Source of the DNA: Plectonema cf. radiosum LEGE 06105
GTDB lineage: Bacteria; Cyanobacteriota; Cyanobacteriia; Cyanobacteriales; Nostocaceae
Direction: 5' to 3'
Assembly (NCBI RefSeq): GCF_015207665.1
Contig: NZ_JADEWL010000030.1
Span: 1 to 55,287, forward strand
DNA length: 55,287 nt
Each line of letters starts with the position of its first letter. Within the stretch, counting starts at the first letter, position 1. This document shows, one piece after another, positions 29,873-32,973 of the stretch. The notes beneath the pieces are model-generated. The model searched no databases and was not told the DNA's origin. It saw nothing but the letters and a program-made list of their open reading frames with translations. The translations under genes were made by a program, and so were the position numbers.

Positions 29873-29936
29873 CATAGTAAGTATCTTCAGGAGTATAGAT
29901 GCAATTAATTTGTCTATTCTATTACTCTAACTGAGT

Positions 29937-30060
29937 TAGGAGTGAGGAGTGAGGAGTGAGGAGGAAGGGAGTGAGGAGTGAGGAGTGAGGAGTGAGGAGT
30001 TAGAAGTTAATAAAACAACTGTCCACTGTCCACTGTCAACTGTCAACTGTTGACCTCTAA
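29937..30060. repeat. Heptad tandem repeats between agrE and the GAF gene
   Basis: GAGTGAG/GAGTTAG units pass into TGTCCAC and TGTCAAC units. They fill most of the spacer between two divergent genes, so any shared promoter region must lie in the roughly 150 bases not occupied by repeats. Confidence 0.8.
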
Positions 30061-30155
30061 CCTTTAAAAAAATATTACTTAAAAACGAATTCAATAAAGT
30101 ACTTGGTAATATATCATCAGCGGATAAACTATTACTCAAGTGTGATATTAGAACG

Positions 30156-30671
30156 GTGACAGAAGATTATAACGCAAGTTTTGACCGTGGTCTACGCATA
30201 GTACTTAATCGCTTAACAACCACAATAGAACGAGATAATTTAATTGTCGAAACCACAAGTCGTCTACGAGATACTATGCGTGTAGATAGGGTTGTATTGT
30301 ATTATTTCTATTCTCAGTGGAATGGACAAGTCACCTTTGAGTCTTTGAGTTCGGATAAATGGTCTATTCTTGGTTCTACTGGTCCAGAAGAATGTTTTAA
30401 TAATGAGTATGCTGCTTTATATTTAAACGGAAGAGTACGGGCAATTCCAGATATTGAATCAGAATCTATTGCTGATTGTCACCGTGATTTTTTACGTAAT
30501 TTAGAGGTTCGCGCTAATTTAGTAGTACCCATCTTAACTGAGAAAGGTTTATGGGGTTTGCTAGTAGCTCATCATTGCCAAGCACCGCGTTTATGGACTC
30601 CATCAGATATTAAAATCATGCAGGTTGAAGCAGAAAATTTATCGCAGGCTGATTCTATTCGTAATTCATAA
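30156..30671 (+). CDS. Stand-alone GAF domain protein, cyanobacteriochrome-like
   Basis: A 171-residue protein consisting of one GAF domain (about 12-165) and no output domain. The layout follows cyanobacteriochrome and phytochrome-related GAF domains: VDRVVLYYFYSQWNGQV, then PEECF at 77-81, AIPDIES near 96, DCHRDFL with Cys108-His109, and VRANLVVPI followed by LWGLLVAHHC and APRLW. The CysHis pair is where bilin-binding GAF domains attach chromophore. Cys80 in EECF occupies the place of the second cysteine of DXCF-type cyanobacteriochromes, with Glu for Asp. It may therefore bind a phycobilin and act as a small light sensor, or be a non-photoactive relative. Start GTG at 30156; the frame stays open upstream but has no better start. 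Divergent from agrE. Confidence 0.75.
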   Translation: MTEDYNASFDRGLRIVLNRLTTTIERDNLIVETTSRLRDTMRVDRVVLYYFYSQWNGQVTFESLSSDKWSILGSTGPEECFNNEYAALYLNGRVRAIPDIESESIADCHRDFLRNLEVRANLVVPILTEKGLWGLLVAHHCQAPRLWTPSDIKIMQVEAENLSQADSIRNS

Positions 30672-30870
30672 GGGAATGGGGAATTGGTAATGGGTAATTG
30701 GTAATGGGTAATTGGTAATTGGTAATTGTTAACTCCTAACCTTTAACCTTAGAATTGGTAATTGTTAACTCCTAACCTTTGACCTTTAACCTTTAACCTT
30801 TAACCTTAGAATTGGTAATAGTAATTAAATCCGTGTAATCAGTGAAATCCCTTTGAATCCGTGGTCACAA
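30672..30870. repeat. Heptad repeats and an ATCCGTG dispersed repeat
   Basis: AATTGGT/GGTAATG units and then TTTAACC units run from 30680 to about 30820. They are followed by AAATCCGTGTAATCAGTGAAATCC..AATCCGTGGTC (about 30826-30867), a block seen in part on the other strand near 52685-52735. A longer reading of the next gene would begin inside this repeat. Confidence 0.75.
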
Positions 30871-30981
30871 TTACTAGTAGCAAACAGATACAGCACTACA
30901 AATAAATTACAGACAAAATGTTACCTTGGGAAATTGGAACTTGGTTACTTTAATCCAATTTTTCTTAGGGAATATTACTCA

Positions 30982-31893
30982 ATGCCTTATCTAAAATCGG
31001 CTTCGGAAATTCGTTCTCTTGTTGCTAAGTATACTAAAGTAAAAACTCTTTGGCTAGATACAGAAGTTGCTGATTATGATACTCGTAATCCCAAACTATC
31101 GCTGATTCAAGTTTTGCATGACTGTACGGATTTAACTGGAGAAAGTGTTTATATTTTGGATGTACTCGAACAGCCTTTTATTGTTGAAGAATTTATCGAA
31201 AAAATTATGATGAATTCTTCAATAGAAAAAGTATTTCATAATGCTAAGTATGATTTAAGATTTTTAGGTAAAAAGCAAGCCAAAAATGTCACTTGCACTT
31301 TGGAAATGGCAAAACAAATCCCATATTATATTTTACCTTTACCTAATTATCAATTGAAGACCTTAGCAATAGAAATTTGTCATTTTCAAGATATTGATAA
31401 ACAGCAACAAAGCAGCGATTGGGGAATTAGACCTTTGAGTGAAGAACAAATTGAATATGCTTACTTCGACTGCATTATTCTAGCTCAAGTTCATTTGCGC
31501 TTGTTAGAATTAACTCAAAAGTTAAACTTTGATGCAGTATCAGAAGATTTAAGTTTACTTGGTGCAAAATATATTGAACTAGAACACCAATGGCAGCTTG
31601 TAAAATCGGAATTTGAACATCTGCAAGAACGAGTTAAACAAGCAATGGTAGCTCAACAATTATCTGAGACCCCAAATTTTAAACTTAATAGTTCCGAACG
31701 CACAACAATTAAAGTGCCATTTTCTGAACTGGTACGGTTAGTAGAAACTCAAAATGTAAATTTAGATTTTGATATTACCCTTACTAAAGATATTCAAAAA
31801 AACCTAGGGGATAATATCGAGCAACTTGCTGTAGACATATCAAAAACCACTAGTTTAAGATTAATTTCCAAGCAAGCCGAAAATGAAGAATAA
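30982..31893 (+). CDS. RNase D-like 3'-5' exonuclease (DEDD family)
   Basis: A 303-residue protein with a DNA_pol_A_exo1/RNase D fold. The DEDDy residues are visible: LWLDTEVADYD near 25-35 (Exo I), VFHNAKYDLRFLG near 95-105 (Exo II) and YAYFDCIILAQVHL near 165-178 (Exo III, YxxxD). The last 100 residues are helical, polar and without an HRDC domain I can recognise. It probably trims RNA 3' ends; DNA is possible. I start at the ATG at 30982 (MPYLKSASEIRSL), because upstream sequence belongs to the ATCCGTG repeat. Confidence 0.85.
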   Translation: MPYLKSASEIRSLVAKYTKVKTLWLDTEVADYDTRNPKLSLIQVLHDCTDLTGESVYILDVLEQPFIVEEFIEKIMMNSSIEKVFHNAKYDLRFLGKKQAKNVTCTLEMAKQIPYYILPLPNYQLKTLAIEICHFQDIDKQQQSSDWGIRPLSEEQIEYAYFDCIILAQVHLRLLELTQKLNFDAVSEDLSLLGAKYIELEHQWQLVKSEFEHLQERVKQAMVAQQLSETPNFKLNSSERTTIKVPFSELVRLVETQNVNLDFDITLTKDIQKNLGDNIEQLAVDISKTTSLRLISKQAENEE

Positions 31894-31920
31894 ACAATAA
31901 GTACATTAAAGTTAGATTAT

Positions 31921-31943
31921 AACAGGCTGCTGGCTTGTTTTTT
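31921..31943 (+). terminator. Rho-independent terminator after the exonuclease gene
   Basis: AACAGGC and GCTTGTT pair (one G-U) around a five-base loop, followed directly by a run of T. It lies 27 bases after the stop codon. Confidence 0.75.
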
Positions 31944-32136
31944 AATCTCAAATCCATTAAGCTTTCCTGCGGACATAATCTAAAATCGGTTTAGTAAAAT
32001 GTAAACAAATTCGCCACAAAATCCATGCAAAAATAGTCAATATAGCTAATTAGAGTGATGATTATTCAATATTAAGAAAAATGTATTTTTTTCATATAAA
32101 TGCCAAAATTCTGGGTGTCTTGATAAAAAGTGACTT

Positions 32137-32973
32137 ATGAAACAGTGGTTGTTAGAGCAAAATTTGACAAGAGTTTCCAAAAGATTTGGTGTAGTCTTGT
32201 TGAGTGGATTTATCGCAACTGTAACTGTTTCTTGCAGCAACGATAAAGATGTATTAGTTACGGAAATAGGAGTTAGTCCCGCAACAAGTCCAGTGCCTAA
32301 CCCATCAACTGCTAAGGAATTTTACGCACAGGGACAGTATAAGCATATTCAGGGTGATACTCAAGGCGCGATCGCGGCTTATACAAAAGCTATTAGTCTT
32401 GATTCCGACTATGTGGAAGCTTACAACGGTAGGGGTTTAGTACAGTTTGACACCGGAGATAGACAAGGTGCGATCGCCGATTATAATGAAGCGCTGCGCG
32501 TCAGCCCTGACAACGCTCAAGCTTATAATAATCGAGGGAATGCCCGTGCTGCTCAAGGTGATATCAACGGTGCAATTACCGATTACGACCAAGCTATTAA
32601 TTTAGATGCCAATTATGCCCAAGCGTATAATAATCGGGGAAATGCTCGTGCTGCTCAAGGAAATAGAAACGAAGCTATAGCAGATTATACTGAGGCGATT
32701 CGTGTTAATCCTAACTATGCCGTTGCTTATAATAATCGAGGAAATGCTCGCGCTGCTCAAGGAGACAACGAAGGTGCAATTTCCGATTATGACGAAGCCA
32801 TTCGTCTCAATCCCAACTTTGGTGCTGCTTATAATAACCGGGGAAATGCTCGCGCCGAAAAAGATAAAGATGCTGCTTTAGCCGACTTACAGCGAGCCGC
32901 AGAGATTTTTCAAGAACAAAATAACCAGCAGCTATACAAACAAGTTATGGAAAATGTCAAGGAAATTCAATAA
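32137..32973 (+). CDS. TPR-repeat lipoprotein
   Basis: A 278-residue exported protein. The N-terminus is basic, then hydrophobic, and ends TVSCSN, a plausible lipobox with the lipidated Cys near residue 33. After a short Pro/Ser linker come six tetratricopeptide units (about 60-265) of 34 residues each. The phrase AYNNRGNARAAQG recurs four times almost unchanged, also at DNA level. TPR arrays bind other proteins; partner unknown. HIP1 sites occur inside two of the units. The near identity of units indicates recent internal amplification. Confidence 0.85.
   Translation: MKQWLLEQNLTRVSKRFGVVLLSGFIATVTVSCSNDKDVLVTEIGVSPATSPVPNPSTAKEFYAQGQYKHIQGDTQGAIAAYTKAISLDSDYVEAYNGRGLVQFDTGDRQGAIADYNEALRVSPDNAQAYNNRGNARAAQGDINGAITDYDQAINLDANYAQAYNNRGNARAAQGNRNEAIADYTEAIRVNPNYAVAYNNRGNARAAQGDNEGAISDYDEAIRLNPNFGAAYNNRGNARAEKDKDAALADLQRAAEIFQEQNNQQLYKQVMENVKEIQ

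Follow-up and report, generated by a model that had tools for sequence, protein, structure and literature searches.

A putative stand-alone light sensor of the DXCF cyanobacteriochrome type, built from a single GAF domain, in Plectonema cf. radiosum LEGE 06105

Most work on cyanobacteriochromes (CBCRs) has dealt with domains excised from kinases, cyclases or chemoreceptors, and in ordinary CBCRs the light-driven change reaches the fused kinase or other output via the C-terminal helix. CBCRs of the DXCF type, represented by TePixJ and further by Tlr0924 and others, possess a labile C10 thioether and typically form phycoviolobilin. According to the accessible parts of two publications, the bilin attached to the canonical cysteine of DXCF proteins is in the dark also held at its C10 atom by a second cysteine and absorbs violet to blue light, while on illumination it isomerises, loses the second bond and absorbs at longer wavelength (PMC11284453, PMC4469895). 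Here we analyse a protein encoded in the window, i.e. the whole stretch of 55,287 nucleotides under study, which resembles TePixJ in its predicted GAF fold, in the Cys-His pair at the canonical position, in the Cys-Phe pair at the position of the second cysteine and in the surrounding motifs. In contrast to TePixJ, it has no output domain and carries a glutamate in place of the motif aspartate; its identity to the TePixJ structures is 28-33%. The NpR3784 lineage with miRFP670nano, which is likewise used as an isolated GAF domain, is also among the top matches by sequence and fold. Its solved structures are engineered near-infrared proteins, it falls outside the group of 34 rows that contains our protein in the tree described below and, as far as the accessible text of the source goes, it lacks the second cysteine of the DXCF type (PMC11284453).

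The open reading frame of the putative single-domain DXCF-type CBCR (positions 30156..30671, + strand) encodes 171 amino acids, corresponding to a mass of about 19 kDa as estimated from its length; it starts with GTG and its stop codon ends at position 30671. Upstream of this GTG the frame remains open in the window for 34 codons devoid of ATG, GTG and TTG, and a TTG at -22 is present in two relatives. Since the seven genus relatives all have a GTG at the aligned codon, we consider it the likely start. Pfam assigns residues 29-165 to the GAF family (PF01590, 7.8e-19) and lists two more GAF models below cut-off, whereas no model other than GAF is reported. The domain thus stands without PAS or PHY photosensory partners, as in CBCRs, and the PHY domain that marks phytochromes gave no Pfam match. 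Among the NCBIfam models four families were hit; no score came near the respective cut-off, and the highest was that of the bacteriophytochrome BphP with 52 of 1040 bits. Neither Pfam nor the fixed C-terminus (see below) indicates a fused kinase, cyclase, EAL/GGDEF or MCP output in the chain. A previous sequence-only reading of this DNA had described the protein as one GAF domain and nothing else, and this architecture proved to be real and conserved across the family. Given dN/dS values of 0.22-0.34 against four relatives and 40 invariant columns in an alignment of 30 sequences (own sequence included), the gene represents more than chance, and it is under purifying selection. A location on a plasmid was discarded, as a megablast search of a plasmid collection gave no match.

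The canonical bilin-attachment position is occupied by Cys108-His109 (30477..30482, + strand; TGT at 30477-30479, CAC at 30480-30482), which is followed by the strand VRANLVVPI. The stretch Glu78-Glu79-Cys80-Phe81 (30387..30398, + strand; Glu78 GAA at 30387-30389, Cys80 TGT at 30393-30395) corresponds to the DXCF motif with its second cysteine. All of these elements lie in the translation where the sequence-only reading had placed them. To judge their conservation we refer to 80 named orthologous loci, which are the best 80 of 269 relatives and of which two (L109, L110) share one genome. Cys108 and His109, the canonical cysteine and histidine of CBCRs, are each invariant in these 80 loci, and so are Phe81, Tyr49-Tyr50-Phe51-Tyr52, Trp55, Trp133, His139 and Cys141. 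In the 29 relatives of the first search, Cys80, Phe81, Cys108 and His109 are each present in 29/29 and Cys141 in 28/29, with an aspartate in the one exception (L032); multi-domain CBCR GAF domains, too, often have a cysteine at position 141. Residue 80 is cysteine in 77 of the 80 loci and serine in three, namely both loci of Mastigocoleus testarum (L109, L110) and one of Dendronalium phyllosphericum (L145), so that the second cysteine is not strictly required in the stand-alone family. In these Ser80 orthologues the second bond should be missing and absorption should lie at longer wavelength; they constitute a natural mutant series.

At position 78 the 80 loci carry Asp (70), Ser (7) or Glu (3; L072, L122, L141), and the 29 first-search relatives, a set that overlaps with the former, carry Asp (25) or once each Glu, Ala, Asn and Ser. 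In the protein studied here Cys80-Phe81 of the DXCF motif is retained and the motif aspartate, found in 70/80 loci, is replaced by Glu78. As the family mostly has Asp and even a 92%-identical relative has Asp at this position, Glu78 represents a recent, conservative change. Among 34 multi-domain GAF domains with a Cys-Phe pair, most of which were picked as best hits and hence form no random sample, position 78 is Asp in 28, Glu in three, Pro in two and Ser in one. The three Glu-bearing rows (L210, L220, L227) group together in the tree and apart from the stand-alone family; Glu therefore marks a small multi-domain group separate from it. The proposal of an EXCF variant class, made in the sequence-only reading, has to be given up on these grounds: Glu occurs in 3/80 loci against Asp in 70/80 and in the 92%-identical relative, and it marks no clade that includes our protein. 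A search of the open literature for "EXCF" together with "cyanobacteriochrome" returned no papers. In two insert-Cys CBCRs, the accessible text of one study reports that exchange of the motif Asp for Glu preserved phycocyanobilin binding and was milder than exchange for Ala, and that photoconversion efficiency was lowered by the Asp-to-Glu exchange (PMC5240096).

To assign the protein to a class, sequence, fold and phylogeny were considered. Its closest relatives of known structure are CBCR GAF domains and engineered derivatives thereof (6oap, miRFP670nano, TePixJ), followed by phytochromes; hereby the ten best distinct sequences of the structure database gave E values of 1.7e-24 to 1.1e-20 with the single protein, and the best E value with the family profile was 3.2e-37. 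A structure model predicted from 57 sequences (mean pLDDT 85.5; 79.8 for an earlier model) comprises a long N-terminal helix (residues 3-41), the GAF sheet, a helix that carries the attachment cysteine (107-115) and one at the C-terminus (149-164). With this model as query, Foldseek places CBCR GAF structures first (RcaE, miRFPnano proteins, 6oap, TePixJ), with TM-scores by query length of about 0.60-0.76, and the earlier model likewise gave CBCR GAF structures first. A tree of 69 GAF rows unites all 23 single-domain rows in a single clade (support 100/100, recovered in 100% of 200 bootstrap trees), and this clade makes up a group with 11 multi-domain CBCR GAF domains at a support of 97/87. 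Cys-Phe and Cys-His are found at the corresponding places in all 11, and the seven rows that lack the canonical cysteine all fall outside this group of 34 rows. Of the nine proteins behind the 11 rows, all eight tested contain HATPase_c and four of these also a PHY region. Hereto belong the nearest multi-domain relatives of our protein, i.e. CBCR GAF domains of GAF-PHY-GAF and related histidine kinases (L203, L204, L208, L209, L211, L214, L218, L221, L222), which have the same Cys-Phe and Cys-His pairs and, unlike the stand-alone protein, are fused to HATPase_c (8/8 tested, L222 being outside the test).

The tree was computed from 74 rows after removal of five: partial or duplicate rows (L173, 1-118; L174, 552-685; L180), the query's own copy (L187) and a partial row (L191). 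Four such partial or duplicate rows were also left out of the residue comparison between family and multi-domain GAF domains, and domain-search matches of fewer than 100 model positions were not used. The multi-domain rows from other genomes are best hits to our protein, which enriches for DXCF types, and the bootstrap was not fully settled (correlation 0.982). The position of the root is uncertain, because two of the outgroup branches are long and join each other; in each sampled bootstrap tree the single-domain rows form one side of a branch. By similarity in sequence, predicted fold and tree position alike, the GAF domain is thus most similar to those of CBCRs and is a DXCF-type cyanobacteriochrome as far as these comparisons can define one. 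The sequence-only reading had proposed a CBCR-type GAF domain with both cysteine positions and a tree as a check; in that tree the protein lies inside the CBCR GAF domains and away from the seven rows without the cysteine.

Single-domain copies are widespread. In a sample of 386 genomes taken evenly across the phylum, at least 57 genomes (own included) and at least 31 of the 43 from the window's taxonomic family possess one; up to nine candidates were scored per genome, so that these counts are lower bounds, and the 329 genomes in which no copy was seen refer to the same first look. The single-domain matches have E values of 1.5e-45 or lower and open frames of 165-213 aa. Next among the matches listed comes one with E = 1.1e-38 in a 916-aa frame, and the shortest frame listed in this second group (E ≥ 1.1e-38) has 359 aa, so that the two groups do not overlap. 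Among 60 genomes of near relatives, own included, 35 contain a single-domain copy, all seven genus relatives among them; of the other 25, three matched only via multi-domain proteins and 22 gave no match at 1e-35. The best 80 of 269 loci stem from Calothrix, Rivularia/Richelia, Fischerella, Chlorogloeopsis, Scytonema, Nostoc, Anabaena and Dolichospermum, as well as from Leptolyngbya-like strains, Halomicronema and Xenococcaceae, and are 59-97% (median 63%) identical to the window protein. In the titles and abstract openings of the open literature, a scope outside which some papers on the DXCF lineage lie, no description of a stand-alone DXCF family was found; it may already be in print.

The family ends in a characteristic manner. 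The C-terminal helix and C-terminus (30597..30671, + strand, stop codon included) extend 24 residues past Trp147, a length kept exactly in 77 of 81 rows. Ile168, three residues ahead of the usual end, is present in 80/80 loci, whereas multi-domain GAF domains have Gln there in 40/44 and Ile in 0/44; the end of the helix has thus been remade in the family and not merely cut. Since the same end recurs across proteins that are mostly near 63% identity, and in agreement with the dN/dS values, we take it as an inherited design and not as decay. Fifteen positions, among them Gly12, Leu20, Tyr50, Tyr52 and Ile168, are shared by at least 95% of the family and are rare in the 44 multi-domain GAF domains; they would suit a candidate contact surface. 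On a simple reading, one GAF domain left a histidine-kinase photoreceptor and has since persisted as a protein of its own.

The gene and agrE are divergently oriented and separated by 280 bp (29876..30155). While this divergent arrangement agrees with the sequence-only reading, its idea that such proteins might recur beside agrE does not extend beyond the genus: a survey of 81 loci found agrE as neighbour in six, all from the window's genus (also in 6/34 loci of another set), and L077, the seventh genus locus, starts too near the contig end to tell. A functional link to agrE as a general rule was therefore rejected. Only 5 of the 102 intergenic bases next to the GTG differ from genus relative L010, and the stretch may thus hold regulatory sequence. 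All neighbour counts for the 81 loci are lower bounds, as some loci are shorter than 6 kb per side. Downstream, genes for a 3'-5' exonuclease-domain protein and a TPR protein (30853-32973) stay with the GAF gene in 8/81 loci, including Chlorogloeopsis L082 outside the genus. In other Nostocaceae, ndhH lies upstream in 20/81 loci and a Methyltransf_28 gene, which we take to be MidA-like, downstream in 36/81, with both present in 13. This second setting was dismissed as a sign of a functional link to the GAF protein and attributed to the placement of one group. Out of 19 genomes, 11 (G000, G001, G005, G008, G012, G014, G018, G021, G022, G036, G055) have ndhH within about 3 kb of the Methyltransf_28 gene, and in just two of them, G012 and G022, the GAF gene stands between these genes; in the nine others, among which is the genome of the window, it is located elsewhere or has no match. 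In seven of the remaining eight genomes the two genes are apart or not shown close, and in G020 neither was matched. An example of the adjacency is found in G000 on contig C198, 6133-9028. In humans, the Methyltransf_28 family member NDUFAF7 methylates NDUFS2, the counterpart of ndhH, so that the pairing of ndhH and Methyltransf_28 may itself be functional. Across the 81 loci, which show at least two quite different settings, no neighbour recurs throughout the family. As no neighbour stays with the GAF gene, a partner, if there is one, would be encoded elsewhere, and the gene neighbourhoods point to no candidate for it.

Tandem arrays of heptamers occur in the intergenic regions on both sides of the gene (29933-30050 and 30675-30807; GAGTGAG, CAACTGT, AATGGGT/AATTGGT, TAACCTT). 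Short repeats of this type are common in filamentous cyanobacteria, and the arrays might have had a part in moving the gene. With regard to pigment supply, the genome encodes one member of the ferredoxin-bilin-reductase family and two haem oxygenases. It contains 51 GAF matches with E ≤ 1e-5, of which only the one studied here sits in a frame of less than 400 aa. Several CBCR-type GAF domains stand in tandem in a 1173-residue frame (G000 contig C102, 20245-22773; L002-L004, L008, L173, L174), and three of them carry a second cysteine, in DHCF, DHCF and DYCF motifs.

Judging from its sequence features, the protein very probably binds a bilin and photoswitches. Hereby, phycocyanobilin would attach to Cys108, and in the dark Cys80 would additionally be linked to the C10 atom of the bilin by a light-labile bond, which results in a state that absorbs violet or blue light. 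Light would isomerise the bilin and break the C10 bond, yielding a state that absorbs at longer wavelength (teal to orange). As the C-terminal helix ends at a fixed point, the light-driven change would have to be read in trans by another protein, and the only way for the signal to reach that protein would be via the surface of the photoreceptor and its N-terminal and C-terminal helices. That the stripped-down form has been kept in many cyanobacteria likewise suggests that it works by touching another protein, and provided that bilin binding and photoswitching take place, we regard signalling in trans by protein contact as fairly probable. The blue-light photoswitch would then have split off from a kinase sensor and now act in trans. 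Given that histidine kinases are its nearest multi-domain relatives, a GAF-containing histidine kinase would be the first guess for the partner, a tentative suggestion about which we are rather doubtful. The short BLUF protein PixD likewise lacks an output domain. As far as the accessible text of the source goes, the PixD-PixE system of Synechocystis signals via light-dependent assembly of the photoreceptor with a separate partner (PMC5899715). The comparison concerns the mode of action only, as PixD is a flavin-binding BLUF protein and belongs to another class of photoreceptors than the GAF protein.

Weighed against the explanations that follow, we consider it likely that the protein is a stand-alone DXCF light sensor in its own right. 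It could instead hold a bilin without being a sensor, i.e. store, deliver or quench phycocyanobilin, photoconversion being a by-product. Such a function would be compatible with the lack of both an output domain and a conserved partner gene, and a second conserved cysteine could just protect or hold the pigment. However, both cysteine positions and their surrounding motifs are kept as in the DXCF GAF domains of sensor kinases, with which the family also groups in the tree, and the fifteen family-specific positions would have a ready use in a contact surface; we thus regard a pure bilin holder as unlikely. Still less probable, in our view, is a GAF domain that carries no bilin in the cell and senses another ligand or the redox state via its cysteines. 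Cys108-His109 and the strand next to it represent the invariant bilin-attachment signature, and sequence, fold and tree all place the protein closest to CBCR GAF domains and not to other ones. Bilin binding is here predicted from the sequence, and a third cysteine, Cys141, kept in all 80 named loci (Asp in L032), might be taken to favour redox sensing; yet a cysteine at this position is frequent in multi-domain CBCR GAF domains as well.

With its 171 residues and no output domain, the protein might finally be taken for a degenerating piece of a larger photoreceptor or for an assembly artefact, to which we give hardly any credence. A C-terminus shared by 77/81 rows and dN/dS values of 0.22-0.34 make decay very unlikely, and the family moreover forms one clade from many genera.

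In conclusion, the stand-alone light sensor is our preferred reading. A more far-reaching version of it is possible, with chances that we put slightly below even: a dedicated, ancient family of output-less CBCRs acting in trans, in which the GAF protein would serve a histidine kinase, or some other partner, as a diffusible light-state subunit and the conserved free C-terminus would be the contact element. If this is true, a CBCR and its output do not always share one polypeptide. A natural one-GAF family that is under selection and has a fixed C-terminus makes it possible to study cleanly how the signal of a bilin photoswitch reaches a separate protein. Moreover, it offers small natural photoswitches of about 19 kDa, including members in which Cys80 is replaced by Ser.
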